Below, in pieces: positions 1,585-9,801 of a stretch of DNA of 31,152 nt (the stretch's first letter is position 1; every line of letters starts with the position of its first letter). The notes beneath the pieces are model-generated. The model did not search any database. It had not been told where the DNA came from and saw nothing but the letters and a program-made list of their open reading frames with translations. The stretch is from a virus. The position numbers were made by a program, and so were the translations under genes. The stretch is from positions 1 through 31,152 of the IMG/VR virus record IMGVR_UViG_3300044695_003472; one strand, 5' to 3'.

Positions 1585-2013
1585 TCAGAAGGGAACGTCG
1601 TCGTCTGAGATACCGCTGTCGATGGGCGGTCGCTGTGCCGTGCGCGGCTGGCTCACCAGCCCGCCTCCGTCCTGCTTCTCGCCACCGCCGCCCAGCAGAA
1701 TCACCTCGTCCGCCACCACTTCCGTCGAATACCGCTTTTCCCCGTCCTTGTCATAGCTGCGAGTTTGCAAACGCCCTTCAACGTAGACCTGCTTCCCCTT
1801 GGTGAGATACGGCACAAGGTTTTCAGAGCGCCATAGGGATACGTTCGTCCACTCCGTCTCCTCTTTCCACTCGTCCGAGCCCTTGTCTTTCCACCGACGG
1901 CTGGTCGCCACTGAAAACCGCGCCACATGCACGCCGGACGGCGTGAACTTCCCCTCCGCGTCTTTTCCCAGGTGCCCGATGAGGGTTACTTTGTTTATGC
2001 TTCGTGATGCCAT
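1585..2013 (-). CDS. ssb: Single-stranded DNA-binding protein
   Basis: 142 residues, the normal length for a bacterial/phage SSB. It opens with SINKVTLIGHLGKDAEGKFTPSG, shows the OB-fold signatures (VARFSVATSRRW, EWTNVSLW, QVYVEGRLQTRSY), has a short Gly/Pro-rich linker, and ends in the acidic tip DDDVPF used to recruit replication and repair partners. It coats ssDNA during phage replication and recombination. It directly follows the Sak4/AAA_24-type ATPase (stop codon adjacent to the start codon at 2013), and Sak4-type annealing recombinases are known to act with their cognate SSB, so the two are probably a functional pair. Confidence 0.95.
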   Translation of the reverse strand: MASRSINKVTLIGHLGKDAEGKFTPSGVHVARFSVATSRRWKDKGSDEWKEETEWTNVSLWRSENLVPYLTKGKQVYVEGRLQTRSYDKDGEKRYSTEVVADEVILLGGGGEKQDGGGLVSQPRTAQRPPIDSGISDDDVPF

Positions 2014-2901
2014 TTATTGGGCCTTTCCGGCTTTCGCCATGAGCGCCTTATAGCAGGCGGTTGCTTGTGCTTTTTCTGTGAAGTCCTGCGGCCGCGCCAC
2101 GCCGAAGTCGTTCAATGTCGCCATCACATCATCGGCAGATAGCTCTTTGGCCGCTTCCGTGAACGCCGCAATCATCGGCTCATTCGGTGCCCACGCTGGC
2201 GGCTCAGGCCGGTCGTCCGGCGCCCCTTGCAGCCACTCGCGCAGCGTTTCCGCCATCTCCACCCCAGGCCGATTGATAACCGCGCCGCTCAACTTCGGGC
2301 AGCGCGACTTGGTGACCGTGAGGGTGTTGTCCTGGTCGATCTCCCCGCACACGTCAAACTCGAACTCAATGCCGTCGCGCATGACTGGCGCAAGTCCGAC
2401 CTTGCGCGGTGCCCGCTTGCCGTTCACTTCCTCTATCACCCATTCGGTTTTCGTCCGCATGGAAACGAGGACGTGAATCTTCGCGGATAGAATCTTGTCC
2501 ACTAGCGCCTGATGGTATGGCGTGACGTTCTTCCATGCGGCAAATGTATTCCCGCCGCTCGACCGCTTCGCCGCCGCGTCCACCATGTCCAGTTCGCCGC
2601 CCTTGCCCATCCAGTAATGGGATAGCGAATCCACGACGATGACCGCATAGCCGCCCTCCACGGCTGCGTCAAGGGTTTTGACGAGTTCGCGCGGGTCAAA
2701 TGTGGACGGCTCCACCACGTCGAACTCAAACAGATCCGCGTACTTGCTGGCGGAGCCGTGTTCCGTGTCGATCACGGCCACCTTCCCGCCGCCAGCCAGG
2801 TTCTTCGCCAATTCAAGCAGGGAATAGGTCTTGCCCCCGCCCGCCGGCCCGCAAATCGCAAACCGTAGTTTTGCGTTCCTCTTTACTGCTCGCTCAAACA
2901 T
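2014..2901 (-). CDS. AAA_24 / Sak4-like ATPase, probable recombination protein
   Basis: 295 residues from the ATG at 2901, chosen over an in-frame ATG at 2925 because GGAGG lies 5 bases upstream. A P-loop G-P-A-G-G-G-K-T spans residues 18-25, a Walker B-like strand AVIVVDSLSH lies near residue 90, and a RecA-like core runs to about residue 200, with a variable C-terminal helical tail. This architecture fits phage nucleotide-binding proteins of the AAA_24 / Sak4 group, RecA-like single-strand annealing or recombination mediators. Its coupling to ssb supports that role. The exact biochemical activity is inferred from family and context. Confidence 0.82.
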   Translation of the reverse strand: MFERAVKRNAKLRFAICGPAGGGKTYSLLELAKNLAGGGKVAVIDTEHGSASKYADLFEFDVVEPSTFDPRELVKTLDAAVEGGYAVIVVDSLSHYWMGKGGELDMVDAAAKRSSGGNTFAAWKNVTPYHQALVDKILSAKIHVLVSMRTKTEWVIEEVNGKRAPRKVGLAPVMRDGIEFEFDVCGEIDQDNTLTVTKSRCPKLSGAVINRPGVEMAETLREWLQGAPDDRPEPPAWAPNEPMIAAFTEAAKELSADDVMATLNDFGVARPQDFTEKAQATACYKALMAKAGKAQ

Positions 2902-3101
2902 GATTCCTCCGTTGTTGTCTTGCAATCTTCAACCGCCTGCTGGAACGCCGCGTCCAGCTTTTCCACTAGCGCTAGTAGCCCGGCGTTTCGCGCATCGTGC
3001 ATCAGTTGGTCAAGCGCCGCCGCCGCTATCATTGCGGTGTTCTCTGGACTGCCAATTGTCGGCACTCCGAGCTCGCGCCGTTGGTCATTAACCGCGCCCA
3101 T
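2883..3101 (-). CDS. Hypothetical helical protein, 72 aa
   Basis: The ATG at 3101 has GGAG 7 bases upstream, and the stop overlaps the start of the ATPase gene by 19 bases. The sequence is mostly helical (IAAAALDQLMHDARNAGLLALVEKLD in outline), acidic, and without Cys pairs or membrane segments. Its position immediately before the ATPase and ssb suggests a small accessory of the recombination module, but no family is recognised. Confidence 0.65.
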   Translation of the reverse strand: MGAVNDQRRELGVPTIGSPENTAMIAAAALDQLMHDARNAGLLALVEKLDAAFQQAVEDCKTTTEESCLSEQ

Positions 3102-6102: not shown

Positions 6103-7872
6103 TTACTGCGCATACAGGCCCTCTACTACTAATGCGGCGGTTCCACTTACCCCCGCCATATTACAGCCATAGCCATAGTGCGTTGCCGTCAAAAAATCGG
6201 TTCGTGTATGTTGGGCTACTTGCGTCCAATTGATTCGATCAACAGACGTGGACCAAGTTCGATTCGTATTATCGTCTACCAGTTTGAAGGAAATCTTGCC
6301 CCTCGGCGTAGAAGTTGCATAGTCGAAATAAGCCGAGTTCCCGGTCGTAGCGTTAGTATACTTCGCCATTCCGAGTTTCGCATTAGTATAGTGAAGACCA
6401 ATAGCTTTGTTGGAGGCTGCTGTTGTACCCTCCGTTATGAAGAATCCACACGCATTAGACGCCGTTGATGCAAGTTGGATGTCCAGGTCAATGATGATCG
6501 TGTATGGCGCGGTAGGAATAGCCTTGATATACAACCGCAGCGCATCAGATCCAGCCGCAGATCCCCCATCGTATAGAACTGATCCAGTTGTCGCCGTTAC
6601 AGATGCGCCAGAACCATAGGCTGTTCCGTTCGACCAGGGCAGCGTTGGGATGTACTTCTGCCCAGACCAATAAGCGTACGAAGTCCCATTGCAGTGCGCG
6701 CTGTAAATCGAATCCGTCAGCACGTATTGGTAATTGGTGTTGCTCCCACCGCACGCCGGAAGCGAGGCGTAGGTGGTGCGCAGCACGCTCCCGCCAGACG
6801 CCGCTCCCTGCGCCACCCAGGTATTCGTGGACTCGCACAGGTACCAGCGCGAGCCCGTCGTCGCGTCCGTGTCCATATACGCGTCGCCGACGGTGCAGGC
6901 GCCGGGAAGGAAGATGCCGTTGGGAACGCGGAGGGTTTTCGAGCTGAGGTTGACCGTCGAAGGTAGCGACAACGTTACCGCGCCCGTACTCGCCGACGCC
7001 GTGATTTCATTGGCCGTTCCGCTGATCGTGGTTGGGAGGGCTGTGCAGGTTTCGGAGGCCCCGGAGGCATCGACGCCCAGCGGGAAGCTTCCCGCGGAAC
7101 AGTTTGCGCCGTTGGCGGCCAGCGCCGTGGCTGTCGCTGCATTGCCGCTTGTGTTTGCGGCGTTGGCCGGGATGTCGGCCGATGCCAGCGCGCGGAACGT
7201 CGGAGTCGCGGCACCGCCAGAGGTTGGCCCGGCGAAAACTTGGTTGGCCGTCTGCGTTGCGAGCGAAAACGCCAGGGTACCACTGGAGGTGATTGGCGAG
7301 CCCGTCACGGCGAGGATAGACGGCACGGTTGCCGCCACGCTCGTGACAGTGCCAGAGCCGCCGCCAGAGGCGCAGGCCGCGGGCTCCCAGGTGGTGCCGT
7401 CGTACACTAGGCAGTTGCCGTTAGAGGCTCCGCCCGCCGTCAATTGAGACGGCTGGAACATGACTGTTGGAGAAGGTACGGCGGTGGCGCGGATCTGGTA
7501 GAGCTTCGTGTCAGCCGCCTCGACCGTCCACACCTCAGACCATGCGGCACCCTTTGCCGGCTGGAACCGCGCGGAGTAGCTGGTGCCCGCCGGTGTGATG
7601 GTGCTGTTGGCAAACAGCGTCGCCGCAAAAGTGCCCGCGCTGGTCGTCGTCGTGCAATCCGCGCCCGTGACGCCGATACAGTAGACGGCTTGCCAACCGG
7701 TCAGGCTGGTGGTCGAGTAGTAAAGCGGCGAAGCGCTGCCGGGAGCGTTGAGGGTTACCGTCACGCGCCCGGTGAATGAGCCCCCGCCAACCGCGTTGGT
7801 GAGCGTGTCGGACAGGCTCACGGTTTGGCCGTAGGCGGCAAGCGCGCCAAGGAAAAGTAGTAGTTTTTTCAT
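6103..7872 (-). CDS. Tail fibre / receptor-binding protein with signal peptide
   Basis: 589 residues from ATG 7872; an in-frame TTG at 7887 is an alternative, and neither has a good SD, though the leader is A-rich. Residues 1-15 form a signal peptide (KKLLLFLGALAAYG|Q). The middle carries the very common fibre motif GTVTSVAATVPS ... VFAGPTSGGAATPTFRALASADIP. The C-terminal ~160 residues are beta-rich and resemble a concanavalin-like binding domain (YTIIIDLDIQLAS, SVDRINWTQVAQ). Twelve cysteines occur after the signal peptide, mostly in neighbouring pairs. The DNA encoding the C-terminus (about 6110-6600) is noticeably AT-richer than the N-terminal part, suggesting exchange of the binding domain. 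Confidence 0.75.
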   Translation of the reverse strand: MKKLLLFLGALAAYGQTVSLSDTLTNAVGGGSFTGRVTVTLNAPGSASPLYYSTTSLTGWQAVYCIGVTGADCTTTTSAGTFAATLFANSTITPAGTSYSARFQPAKGAAWSEVWTVEAADTKLYQIRATAVPSPTVMFQPSQLTAGGASNGNCLVYDGTTWEPAACASGGGSGTVTSVAATVPSILAVTGSPITSSGTLAFSLATQTANQVFAGPTSGGAATPTFRALASADIPANAANTSGNAATATALAANGANCSAGSFPLGVDASGASETCTALPTTISGTANEITASASTGAVTLSLPSTVNLSSKTLRVPNGIFLPGACTVGDAYMDTDATTGSRWYLCESTNTWVAQGAASGGSVLRTTYASLPACGGSNTNYQYVLTDSIYSAHCNGTSYAYWSGQKYIPTLPWSNGTAYGSGASVTATTGSVLYDGGSAAGSDALRLYIKAIPTAPYTIIIDLDIQLASTASNACGFFITEGTTAASNKAIGLHYTNAKLGMAKYTNATTGNSAYFDYATSTPRGKISFKLVDDNTNRTWSTSVDRINWTQVAQHTRTDFLTATHYGYGCNMAGVSGTAALVVEGLYAQ

Positions 7873-7895
7873 GGTGTTTTTTTTCAAAAAAAGAC

Positions 7896-7924
7896 TTGAC
7901 GCTAGAACGTTAAGCGCTTATAGT
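7896..7924 (+). promoter_or_regulatory. Sigma70-type promoter of moron cassette 1
   Basis: TTGACG (7896-7901) and TATAGT (7919-7924) are separated by 17 bases. Six bases (TAAAGT) separate the -10 from the ATG at 7931, so the mRNA should be leaderless or nearly so. A perfect 10-bp palindrome, taagcgctta (7911-7920), overlaps the spacer and -10 and could be an operator. It faces away from the fibre gene. Confidence 0.8.
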
Positions 7925-7930
7925 TAAAGT

Positions 7931-8263
7931 ATGAACAGCGCACACAACACCAACCGACGGACCAAGACAAATTTCAAGAGTTTCATCAAGAAAAACGCAG
8001 CTAACCTGCTCGTGAAAGTAAACGCCGAATTTGACAGCATGTCCGATTGCGTGCGCATCGCTGACGGCGCATGGCGCATGGTCGATCAAAATGCTATTCA
8101 GATTGAAACGCCATACACGATGGGAATTGAAGGCGTTTGGCTGGTCGGTGGTGGGCGTGACTGGTTCGAGCACTACGAAACGGCAAACGCGATCGGCATT
8201 CGCGGCTTCAACTGCTGCGGCTCTTTTACGGTGGCGGTAGCCAAGCAGCAACACGCCGCCTAA
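7931..8263 (+). CDS. Moron gene A1, hypothetical 110-aa protein
   Basis: The ATG at 7931 lies 6 bases after a -10 box with no SD, so a leaderless start is likely. The first codons (MNSAH) match gene A2 (MNSAQ), after which the two differ. The N-terminal third is basic (RRTKTNFKSFIKKN); the rest is beta-rich with several aromatic residues (WRMVDQ, GVWLVGGGRDWFEHYE) and a C-C pair near the end. No family recognised. Its orientation opposite to the late genes and its own promoter suggest expression during lysogeny or early infection. Confidence 0.7.
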   Translation: MNSAHNTNRRTKTNFKSFIKKNAANLLVKVNAEFDSMSDCVRIADGAWRMVDQNAIQIETPYTMGIEGVWLVGGGRDWFEHYETANAIGIRGFNCCGSFTVAVAKQQHAA

Positions 8264-8280
8264 CCCCCACCCCAACGCCA

Positions 8281-8298
8281 GCGGGCGGCATAGCCCGC
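8281..8298 (+). promoter_or_regulatory. Hairpin upstream of the SD of gene B1
   Basis: A 6-bp stem gcgggc / gcccgc with a 6-nt loop is followed at once by agaggaga (SD) and the ATG at 8313. The same stem and SD occur at 9138-9157 with an 8-nt loop. It lies in the 49-base gap between genes A1 and B1. Confidence 0.55.
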
Positions 8299-8312
8299 AG
8301 AGGAGATGAGAG

Positions 8313-8582
8313 ATGCGAGTAAGCACTGAAATGATTCCCGCTGAAATCGCCGCTGAATGCGCGGAAATCGGCAAGACGTGGGCCGCGCATGAGTTTGACG
8401 TGGCGGCGGATGAGGGCCGTAAGCGGCATAATTGGGGGCGCGGAGACTATTGCGGAAATTACCCCGAAGTGCCAGCTTTCCCGGAAGACGAACAACCGCA
8501 CTACGAACTCGACCAGATGATTGATGATGCGGCGATCCCGGTTTGGGAAGCGCTGTGGGATGCCAAAGAGGCCACCCGATGA
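8313..8582 (+). CDS. Moron gene B1, hypothetical acidic 89-aa protein
   Basis: ATG 8313 is preceded by AGAGGAGATGAGAG. The protein is acidic, with a central aromatic/His-rich part (HNWGRGDYCGNYPEVPAF) and an acidic helical end (YELDQMIDDAAIPVWEAL). The last four codons (EATR-stop) belong to a segment shared with gene B2 (KATR-stop), and the stop overlaps the C1 start as ATGA. No family recognised. Confidence 0.65.
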   Translation: MRVSTEMIPAEIAAECAEIGKTWAAHEFDVAADEGRKRHNWGRGDYCGNYPEVPAFPEDEQPHYELDQMIDDAAIPVWEALWDAKEATR

Positions 8583-8770
8583 CCACACCGAAAAACCCCG
8601 CCGCCGTCGCCCTCGGACGGCGCGGCGGGCGCGCGAAAGTCTCCAAGGGCCCCAACGCCGCCAAGACGCCGGAACAGCGCGCGGAGTGGGCTGCAAAAAT
8701 GGTGGCGGCGCGACGGGCGAAGGCTACCGCAACCGCTCCCACTCTCGGCAAACCGCCCGCCACTGCTTGA
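8579..8770 (+). CDS. Moron gene C1, small basic Gly/Arg-rich protein
   Basis: 63 residues from ATG 8579, coupled to B1 by an ATGA overlap. The first 12 residues (MTTPKNPAAVAL) are identical to C2. It continues with GRRGGRAK and PEQRAEWAAKMVAARRAK, a pattern seen in small bacterial and phage proteins of the NPAAVALG-(K/R)-x-GG type that are basic and helical, possibly nucleic-acid binding. The function of that group is not established. Its 3' end overlaps the minus-strand gene at 8724-8906. Confidence 0.65.
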   Translation: MTTPKNPAAVALGRRGGRAKVSKGPNAAKTPEQRAEWAAKMVAARRAKATATAPTLGKPPATA

Positions 8771-8906
8771 GGTCGATCACGCCGATTTTCAGGCGTTCGA
8801 CATACTCATTCCAGAGCCCGGCGAACCGGTTCATGGCCTGCTCGCTGACGGGTGGCGGTTTGTCCGGTTCAGCGGCGGCCAGAAAAAATAATGCGCGGCG
8901 GGTCAT
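8724..8906 (-). CDS. Possible small exported protein between the moron cassettes
   Basis: 60 residues from ATG 8906, convergent with C1 (47-base overlap) and divergent from promoter 2. It begins MTRRALFFLAAAEPDKPPP, a short twin-Arg plus hydrophobic stretch like a minimal export signal, and ends in an aromatic/basic helix (LWNEYVERLKIGVIDLKQW). No SD is seen, and a longer upstream frame would run through the promoter. It is the only candidate gene in the 8771-8913 gap and may not be expressed. Confidence 0.4.
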   Translation of the reverse strand: MTRRALFFLAAAEPDKPPPVSEQAMNRFAGLWNEYVERLKIGVIDLKQWRAVCREWERLR

Positions 8907-8913
8907 TTTGTTG

Positions 8914-8942
8914 TTGACAGTAATCCAGCGTTGGTTTATAGT
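8914..8942 (+). promoter_or_regulatory. Sigma70-type promoter of moron cassette 2
   Basis: Consensus TTGACA (8914-8919), a 17-base spacer and TATAGT (8937-8942), then TAAAGT and the ATG at 8949. From the second base of the spacer end through codon 5 it is identical to cassette 1, but the spacer lacks the 10-bp palindrome, so regulation may differ. Confidence 0.85.
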
Positions 8943-8948
8943 TAAAGT

Positions 8949-9122
8949 ATGAACAGCGCACAACAAACCACCCAAGACGCACTCAACGCCGCTTACGCCA
9001 AGTGGCAGCGAGCCATTGAAAAATACGCCAACCCGCTAATCACCCCGACCACGGCCAAGCGCTATCTGCGCGCCGCTGAACAAGCCAAGGCCGCGTACTT
9101 GGCCGCGAAGTCTGCCCGCTAA
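8949..9122 (+). CDS. Moron gene A2, hypothetical helical 57-aa protein
   Basis: ATG 8949 to TAA 9122, starting 6 bases after a -10 box and probably leaderless. The protein is alanine-rich and helical (DALNAAYAKWQRAIEKYA, then AKRYLRAAEQAKAAYLAAK), with a basic C-terminus. Only MNSA is shared with A1. No family recognised. Confidence 0.65.
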   Translation: MNSAQQTTQDALNAAYAKWQRAIEKYANPLITPTTAKRYLRAAEQAKAAYLAAKSAR

Positions 9123-9137
9123 CCACCCCCAACGCCA

Positions 9138-9157
9138 GCGGGCGGCGTGAAGCCCGC
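9138..9157 (+). promoter_or_regulatory. Hairpin upstream of the SD of gene B2
   Basis: A gcgggc / gcccgc 6-bp stem with an 8-nt loop, then agaggaga and the ATG at 9172. The stem sequence is identical to 8281-8298 while loop length and sequence vary. Confidence 0.55.
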
Positions 9158-9171
9158 AGAGGAGACAAAAA

Positions 9172-9351
9172 ATGATCAGGCTTGAATTTTTTCGCTACTA
9201 CGCCCCGCAAAAAGGCTGGGTTGACACAGGCAAAAGCTATGACAATATCGCCGTTGCAAAATACGCGGCCAACATGGGCCGAACCAACTACCGTATCGTT
9301 GAAGACGGCAAGGTGATCTGGTATCAGGACCAGCCCAAGGCCACCCGATGA
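9172..9351 (+). CDS. Moron gene B2, hypothetical 59-aa protein
   Basis: ATG 9172 follows AGAGGAGACAAAAA. The pattern is strand-helix-strand: IRLEFFRYYAPQKGWVDTG, a helix around NIAVAKYAANMGRTN, then YRIVEDGKVIWYQD. It resembles small phage proteins with a tryptophan near the end, but no function is known. The stop overlaps the ATG of C2, in the block shared with cassette 1. Confidence 0.65.
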   Translation: MIRLEFFRYYAPQKGWVDTGKSYDNIAVAKYAANMGRTNYRIVEDGKVIWYQDQPKATR

Positions 9352-9515
9352 CCACACCCAAAAACCCCGCCGCCGTCGCCCTGCAAGCCCTCCGCAAGAC
9401 CAAGACCGGAGGGCGCAACGGAGGCCCGCCGCTGCGGTACCCACGTTGCCCCTGCGGGCTTATGACAGCCGCGCGGGCGTTGCAGCGGAACCATAAGTGC
9501 CAGCCCGCCGCTTAA
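9348..9515 (+). CDS. Moron gene C2, small zinc-ribbon-like protein
   Basis: 55 residues from ATG 9348 (ATGA overlap with B2). The N-terminal 12 residues equal those of C1. The C-terminus has C34-P-C36-G and H49-K-C51, spaced like a short metal-binding knuckle (YPRCPCGLMTAARALQRNHK). Small phage proteins of this CPCG...HxC type are widespread but uncharacterised. Its end overlaps the convergent metallopeptidase-like gene by 56 bases. Confidence 0.65.
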   Translation: MTTPKNPAAVALQALRKTKTGGRNGGPPLRYPRCPCGLMTAARALQRNHKCQPAA

Positions 9516-9801
9516 GCGCCACTAGCGCCGCCGCAACGTCGCAGATCCACGCCTCATGCGTGGCGTCGGTGAGCCCGGTGCGGACATGTAGCAGCTCGTG
9601 GCAGATGATGAGGTCGGGGTCTTTGTGGAGGCCGCGGCGGATCTTAACTGTCCACTGCGTCGCCCGGCAGTCGTCGAAGTCGGCGCGCGCGTCGTCGCCT
9701 GGAATTTCGGACGCCGGGACGATCAGGAGGCGCGGGCGCTCGGTGATGCCGAGGATTGCGGCCCATTCGCCGGCTAACAGGTGCCAGGCTTCGCGGGTCA
9801 T
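9460..9801 (-). CDS. Putative zinc metallopeptidase (HELLH)
   Basis: 113 residues, ATG 9801 overlapping the preceding stop as ATGA. The core is a helix with H68-E69-L-L-H72, the HExxH zinc-binding and catalytic motif, followed ten residues later by H82-E83, a possible third ligand in the gluzincin manner. The domain is minimal and lacks a signal peptide. It is the last gene of the leftward late accessory cluster. Candidate roles are maturation of a virion protein, turnover of a regulator (as for ImmA/IrrE-type proteins) or lysis; the sequence does not decide among these. Confidence 0.65.
   Translation of the reverse strand: MTREAWHLLAGEWAAILGITERPRLLIVPASEIPGDDARADFDDCRATQWTVKIRRGLHKDPDLIICHELLHVRTGLTDATHEAWICDVAAALVALKRRAGTYGSAATPARLS

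Follow-up and report, generated by a model that had tools for sequence, protein, structure and literature searches.

We found that a 31,152-base virus record from IMG/VR (IMGVR_UViG_3300044695_003472; "the window" below means this whole stretch) carries two gene cassettes built on the same framework, and we consider it probable that they are small accessory operons standing in two slots, in which cargo genes are replaced by recombination at three short conserved border blocks, here called ports. Each cassette holds two cargo genes, A and B, followed by a third gene, C, and a fixed gene, D, separates the two slots. At the level of sequence, this reading draws on near-constant ports around many cargoes, on free assortment of A with B, on cargo that crosses between slots, on one recent swap of a single gene and on relatives in which the site is empty. 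The terminase, portal, capsid and tape measure genes of the window all lie on the minus strand, and the two cassettes, on the plus strand, are bordered by a gene for a 594 aa protein (6103-7887) on one side and a protease-like gene (9460-9801) on the other. The features are as follows; the B gene of slot 1 is a member of the B2 family and that of slot 2 of the B4 family (SD, Shine-Dalgarno sequence).

7896-7924, plus strand: slot 1 promoter P1, TTGACG-17-TATAGT, with the palindrome TTAAGCGCTTA spanning the spacer into the -10 box.
7918-7944, plus strand: port 1 of slot 1, the -10 box, 6 nt and ATG AAC AGC GCA, a predicted leaderless start.
7931-8263, plus strand: cargo A of slot 1, A1 family, 110 aa, starting with MNSA.
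8270-8306, plus strand: port 2 of slot 1, hairpin GCGGGC-GGCATA-GCCCGC and SD.
8313-8582, plus strand: cargo B of slot 1, B2 family, 89 aa.
8569-8613, plus strand: port 3 of slot 1, the end of B, an ATGA overlap and the first ~11 codons of C.
8579-8770, plus strand: gene C of slot 1 (C1), 63 aa from ATG, with a tail we call kgg1, antisense to gene D.
8724-8906, minus strand: gene D, fixed, 60 aa (MTRRALFF...), between the two slots.
8914-8942, plus strand: slot 2 promoter P2, TTGACA-17-TATAGT.
8936-8962, plus strand: port 1 of slot 2, 27 of 27 nt shared with the slot 1 copy.
8949-9122, plus strand: cargo A of slot 2, A2 family, 57 aa.
9127-9165, plus strand: port 2 of slot 2, hairpin and SD.
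9172-9351, plus strand: cargo B of slot 2, B4 family, 59 aa.
9338-9382, plus strand: port 3 of slot 2, 44 of 45 nt shared with the slot 1 copy.
9348-9515, plus strand: gene C of slot 2 (C2), 55 aa, with a tail we call zn (CPCG..HKC), antisense to the protease-like gene.
9460-9801, minus strand: fixed neighbour and right border of slot 2, called protease-like from its HELLH motif alone; the protein has no PHROG match.
6103-7887, minus strand: fixed neighbour bordering slot 1 on the left; 594 aa, called tail-like from its position alone; its single PHROG match is to a family of unknown function.

A sequence-only reading of the window had claimed two such cassettes with conserved borders around unrelated cargo, and the cassettes, their open reading frames and all three blocks proved to be real and where it had placed them. 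Block 1 is identical at 27 of 27 nt (7918-7944 versus 8936-8962), and at up to three mismatches no match to it is expected by chance (100 shuffles). Block 2 is identical at 20 of 20 nt (8270-8289 versus 9127-9146) and is followed by a 24-nt SD part at 83% identity, and block 3 is identical at 44 of 45 nt (8569-8613 versus 9338-9382), which is the same match as the 43 of 44 nt first reported. C1 and C2 also diverge after ~11 codons, and each overlaps, in antisense, the 3' end of its fixed minus-strand neighbour. Between the blocks, A1 and A2 of the window gave no BLASTP alignment, and a comparison of their profiles aligned only the port-encoded residues NSA, with a probability of 0.7%; the two B proteins likewise gave no alignment and a profile probability of 0.3%, both comparisons resting on shallow profiles (3-6 close sequences). 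The claim that the paired cargo genes lack visible similarity was thus borne out, with no homology by profile at these probabilities.

We searched IMG/VR for exact matches with the blocks alone, leaving out the open reading frames, and retrieved 23 stretches with block 1, 37 with block 2, 20 with block 3 and 36 with a shorter block 1. Some of these were chance matches, after whose removal 33 contigs were left; L027 and L098 were then added to give 35. Dropped as chance were L043-L053 (without blocks, except one four-mismatch block 1 in L048), L028, L029, L035, L036, L039 and L040 (block 2 motif, with stray SD-like matches in L035 and L040), L094-L096 and L097. Removing six duplicates (99.4-100% identity over the shared part: G014 and G024 of G000, G009 of G011, G013 and G019 of G003, G029 of G027) left 29. 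Clustering yielded 13 A and 14 B families, to which reading added two A and four B, so that the same chassis is present in 35 contigs (29 non-duplicate) with 15 A and up to 18 B gene families, the A1 family alone occurring in 10 contigs. The blocks are therefore not confined to one genome, and many different A and B genes lie between constant borders, the outcome that the sequence-only reading had named as support for a platform. Elsewhere, the promoter-start pattern was matched three times in a genome collection, with no block present there at the thresholds used, and we judged these matches to be chance. In an annotated phage collection the cassette region matched 15 records, none covering more than 4% of the query, the C1 protein matched none, and TerL matched 2255 records, with 33.8-36.7% identity among the 12 matches listed.

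Comparison of cassettes with different cargo shows where identity begins and ends. At port 1, 75 cassette pairs that differ in A gene and in slot are 98-100% identical from +0 to +9 and fall to 0.24-0.35 beyond +25; upstream, their identity is raised at the -35 box and from about -15/-12 to the start and is near chance elsewhere. At port 2, comparison of 321 pairs that differ in both A and B gives an identity near 1 over AACGCCAGCGGGCGGC, falling to 0.23-0.33 in bins more than 10 bases upstream. This port consists of a GC hairpin followed directly by the SD, with both arms intact in 45 of 47 copies (a count that includes duplicates, at sites sought with at most one mismatch per arm) and a variable loop of 6 or 8 bases. 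At port 3, 271 pairs with different B genes and different C tails show 0.85-0.99 identity from the ATG to about +30 and 0.17-0.41 from +35.

Cargo genes combine in many ways within this framework. Among the 29 dereplicated A-B cassettes are 23 distinct pairs, and the A1 family alone has six B family partners. Four-gamete sets number seven for A x B and four for B x C tail, and they show that these parts recombine with one another. Families A1, A2, A3, A5 and A7 each occur in both slot contexts, as do B1, B2, B3 and B15; specifically, A1 is found in slots 1 and 2 and also under a third promoter class, and A2, the slot 2 family of the window, occupies slot 1 in other phages. In all 15 two-slot lineages the C tail is tied to its slot: kgg1 precedes D, and the tail that precedes the protease-like gene is zn in 13 lineages and kgg2-zn in 2. 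One reason can be seen in the window, where C1 overlaps D in antisense and C2 likewise overlaps the protease-like gene. Promoter spacers and C tails mostly remain with their slot, and cargo crosses slots. In L098 (7600-9600), a B5-family gene is fused straight to the MNSA start in the A position, which means that cargo can also move from the B to the A position. Chimeric C genes were seen in slot 2 of G011, in G026 and in G027/G029, with a kgg2 body and zn tail in G011 and a B6-like start and zn tail in G026. Avoidance of the same cargo in both slots was considered and rejected: none of the 15 two-slot lineages has one A or B family in both slots, against about 1.5 and 0.8 expected by a hand estimate, which is not significant.

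A recent exchange can be seen in G008 and G012, which are 99.80% identical over 7845 nt with a single gap, the A gene of slot 2 (A2 versus A5). Here, 133 identical bases precede the ATG, identity stops one base past codon 4 and, apart from a one-base indel, it resumes at the stop codon. Individual alleles have also moved between contexts. With its first 12 nt left out, A1 of the window has a 100% identical copy in G031, where the promoter is of another class, and a 99.7% identical copy in slot 2 of G022, where gene D is 89.4% identical. Between G022 and G031 themselves, A1 is 99.7% identical, and the promoter before it and the B gene after it differ.

The chassis spans a wide range of phages and has an empty counterpart. 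TerL was found in 9 of 33 records, with identity to that of the window ranging from 96-98% down to 50-59%, and portal identity ranged from 22 to 97%. G004 and G010 (TerL 50 and 53%) carry exact matches to blocks 1, 2 and 3, and G025 (TerL 50%) carries an exact block 2 and a block 3 with one mismatch. Through the protease-like gene we found two cassette-free relatives, L110 and L112 (71 and 61% identity), in which the protease-like gene overlaps a D-like gene, a further gene comes shortly after and cassette blocks are absent; this arrangement marks an empty site. A further promoter class, P3 (...TTATGGTTATTATGG...), precedes ATGAACAGCGCA in G001, G022, G028, G031 and L027, and in G001 and G028 it heads an additional, third slot located downstream of slot 2. 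In G005 and G031 the first two slots seem to have fused, with loss of D.

How the exchange would proceed can be sketched from this layout. Each cassette would be a small moron-like accessory operon running opposite to the late genes, with one slot on either side of gene D, at a site that is contiguous in cassette-free relatives. The ports would double as regulatory signals and identity stretches: port 1 with the -10 box, a short leader and the first four codons of A, predicted to be leaderless; port 2 with the hairpin and SD between A and B; and port 3 with the ATGA junction and ~11 codons from the start of C. A, B or both would be swapped by recombination at two ports, and the swapped-in gene would gain a promoter, a start, a ribosome site and a coupled C. 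The outer slot ends (the promoter spacer and the C tail, antisense to its fixed neighbour) would mostly remain. Exchange would take place between coinfecting phages or prophages via short-homology annealing, under selection for cargo diversity. Short-homology recombination would be the likeliest route, perhaps by a Sak4-like annealase with a single-stranded DNA-binding protein (SSB), or by RecT or ERF in relatives. The window holds a candidate for each of the first two:

2014-2925, minus strand: Sak4-like annealase candidate (phrog_124, Sak4-like, E 2.8e-12; phrog_1366, of unknown function, E 8.2e-76; PF13479).
1585-2013, minus strand: SSB-like protein directly downstream of the Sak4-like gene, with the C-terminus DDDVPF, identified by eye.

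Sak4 of phage HK620 is described as an annealase that its SSB stimulates (PMC5928155), and the pairing requirements given are 23-27 bp of exact pairing for Red-beta and 31-34 for RecA (PMC3945230). Given the Red-beta value, ports of 24-45 nt lie within reach of phage annealases. Among 11 long contigs, PF13479 (a Sak4-type domain) was found in four, RecT in one and ERF in one, and phrog_1366 was found in 10 of 28 records, one of them cassette-free. A dedicated site-specific system, an integron-like recombinase or a retroelement, could also be imagined to move the cargo, given that short constant borders, together with the port 2 hairpin, have the general look of a recombinase site. However, the three ports differ in sequence, different port pairs appear to be used, and a PF00589 integrase was found in only 2 of 28 records (one cassette-free), many of which are fragmentary, in a search that did not include reverse transcriptases or resolvases. 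The window itself has no PF00589 match and hence no linked integrase of the integron kind, attC sites being outside the search, and we regard such a system as very improbable. In the cassette-free L110, a tyrosine integrase-like open reading frame (7353-8765) suggests that this relative may be temperate, and the cassette-bearing G026 has such a frame too.

Several observations weigh against exchange at the ports. All sequences are metagenomic virus contigs, and the blocks are repeated within genomes; short repeats could thus have made an assembler join different phages at the blocks, and 12 of 35 contigs do end within 1 kb of a cassette gene, with G002 ending inside an A gene. (Contig breaks near cassettes are also what is expected if strains in one sample differ there.) Nevertheless, usual sequencing reads are longer than ports of 24-45 nt. 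Moreover, after cassettes less than 2 kb from a contig end were dropped, 21 cassettes with 18 pairs remained, and all seven A x B four-gamete sets persisted with cassettes at least 2 kb inside their contigs. Pairings also recur in non-duplicates (A5-B1 in three; A2-B1, A2-B3, A4-B7 and A1-B2 in two each), although the A4-B7 and A1-B2 recurrences come from close relatives. We therefore give assembly chimeras very little credence. A second concern is that the cassettes were found by block matching with few mismatches, so that identity inside the blocks is partly built in because the sites were found by these same motifs. The sharp fall in identity outside the ports is not built in by this search, nor is the kept start of A in six contigs that did not come from block 1 scans (listed below), and the four-gamete result and the G008/G012 swap are independent of in-block identity.

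A further set of observations bears on whether the ports are sites of exchange or only signals. G008/G012 is the only near-identical pair with a clean port-bounded swap. G000 and G011 share 99.19% identity across 17,684 nt but differ throughout the interior of slot 2, between a point just past the -35 box and mid-C, and the B genes are diverged B4 alleles (92%); read with G014, which is identical to G000 over 13,728 nt, the breaks lie beyond the ports, and we rejected this pair as a port-bounded swap. Among near-identical pairs, with redundant pairs removed, eight gaps lie outside cassettes and four inside, which means that these phages are mosaic in general. In addition, G025 has another promoter class at port 1, no terminator-like site follows either C gene on the plus strand (the sole plus-strand one lies inside A1), five of the 11 long contigs (G010, G013, G015, G025 and G031) lack all three annealase types, and the phrog_1366 and PF13479 searches were also positive in all 14 control genomes. 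Finally, the ports are expression signals too, so that function alone could keep them. Illegitimate recombination might then strike anywhere, with selection retaining those junctions that preserve the signals, and the blocks would not be ports at all; a regulatory role is plausible for every block (promoter, leaderless start, SD, coupled start), and both the gaps outside cassettes and the G000/G011 breaks fit this explanation. It accounts less well for codons 2-4 of A, which keep one synonymous spelling, ATGAACAGCGCA, in G025, G026, G027, G030, L027 and L098 (ending GCG in L098); these six contigs came from block 2 or D scans and not from block 1 scans, and they still begin A with ATGAACAGCGC(A/G). 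Port 3, moreover, keeps ~30 nt of coding region, seemingly beyond what a start signal needs, a fully identical A allele stands behind different promoters with the break in port 1, and both breaks of the G008/G012 swap fall at ports. On balance, we regard conservation as signals only as unlikely, and continue with recombination at the ports as the preferred explanation.

The expression signals themselves are well defined. Only two sigma-70-like promoters were found in 7600-9700, where 0.5 are expected, and both stand at the cassettes (7896-7924 and 8914-8942), with 10 of 12 and 11 of 12 consensus matches. Because the -10 hexamer ends six bases before the ATG, the transcript would begin at or beside the ATG, pointing to a leaderless start. 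The stability of the port 2 hairpin is ordinary compared with shuffles (z -1.07 and -0.93). The opposite strand and own promoter suggest that the cassettes are expressed separately from the late genes, as in morons. A palindrome-like TAAGCG(C/G)TTA or TAACGCTTA lies between the -35 and -10 boxes in the window (7911-7920) and in promoters of related contigs; slot 2 promoters (P2) lack it, and all 13 exact sites in the 17 contigs scanned are at a cassette promoter. It is possibly an operator. An operator for the phage's own repressor was rejected, given that the sites stand only at cassette promoters and show no link to an immunity region.

We also asked what the cargo encodes, scanning 36 representative cargo proteins against family libraries at a cut-off of E 1e-3. 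Pfam gave one family, DUF5710 (1.8e-5, one member, A7 by eye), and PHROGs gave three of unknown function: phrog_18666 (A8), phrog_12127 (two members, one of them B6) and phrog_6319 (one member). NCBIfam gave no family below the cut-off, and the PADLOC defence families gave a single weak match (E 0.02), which does not identify an anti-phage defence locus. Structure models were poor for both the A1 cargo (pLDDT 39.7) and a B2-family cargo (66.2, pTM 0.28). The sequence-only reading had proposed that cargo is exchanged between conserved borders and that the cassettes could serve host interaction or defence: the first part stands, as many bodies occupy the chassis and cargo is exchanged among related phages, and the second gained no backing, as few of the 36 proteins match any family. 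As judged from these scans, a defence role of the cargo is neither supported nor excluded. The DUF5710-like A7 cargo of G004 (37534-37629) holds an in-frame stop, and an intact copy is found in G023.

To place the cassettes among known systems, we compared them with morons and with three kinds of short repeated phage elements. Like morons, they are extra genes with their own promoter, inserted between genes that are contiguous in relatives and opposite to the late genes; unlike morons, they are multi-gene, have exchangeable parts and show no terminator of their own, so that from sequence they appear moron-like in position and promoter only. Promoter plus stem-loop elements (PeSLs) are each one composite element between genes, an early promoter with a stem-loop terminator, for which Arbiol 2010 and Comeau 2014 are the named sources. 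PeSLs are said to mediate gene shuffling among T4-like phages (PMC4503421; PMC3797505), and as described there they share with the cassettes short regulatory elements, a promoter with a stem-loop and gene shuffling between related phages. In the cassettes, by contrast, the promoter belongs to one port and the hairpin to another, and what comes after the hairpin is an SD with a start codon and no T run. The operon has two slots with three different ports at set positions, two of which extend into coding sequence, and the outer ends of the slots mostly do not move. The SAS/ESAS elements of cluster K mycobacteriophages number 11-19 sites per genome, about half with inverted repeats, and in the available passages their authors find little support for hairpins (PMC3203893). 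They resemble the ports as a repeated short sequence just upstream of the starts of different gene families; they differ, in those passages, in having neither coding ports nor slots, and the passages give no tracking of exchange. By eye, the 13-bp SAS consensus GGGATAGGAGCCC was not seen in the cassette ports.

The closest parallel is with the boundary sequences of lambdoid phages, with which the names of Clark and Juhala are reportedly connected, and in which homologous recombination at short conserved junctions makes mosaics. Short boundary sequences are a long-standing hypothesis for phage mosaicism, although they are difficult to discern at most mosaic junctions (PMC3029335). The cassettes have conserved short junctions around non-homologous modules with breakpoints at them, G000/G011 being the exception, and exchange would probably occur by homologous recombination, as in boundary-sequence mosaicism. 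They differ in that the junctions are triple, common to two slots per genome and engaged in combinatorial A x B x slot exchange across diverged phages. Relative to these known kinds, what appears new is the triple-port two-slot layout, with ports that reach into coding sequence and mostly slot-bound ends around free cargo. Among the literature matches listed, in a coverage that mostly leaves out subscription journals, no paper describes such a platform.

In this group of uncultured bacterial viruses, two fixed slots whose edges barely change, and through which small genes are exchanged, show a route by which viruses reshuffle accessory genes. With junctions that are well kept and common to many phages, and with a single-gene swap in a 99.8% identical background, the boundary hypothesis becomes directly testable. 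More speculatively, and here we are doubtful, the cassettes may form a recombinase-independent docking platform, with two (sometimes three) standing slots and three interchangeable ports that each serve for exchange and together supply promoter and start, ribosome site and coding junction, and the platform may have evolved for trading host-takeover or counter-defence genes. If so, any new small gene would be expressed at once after exchange. Phages with terminases as little as ~50% identical would share the platform, which would in effect be an integron that lacks an integrase. The ports also provide a DNA-only probe for small accessory genes, and the cargo they enclose is a natural library to screen for host-takeover and counter-defence activity.

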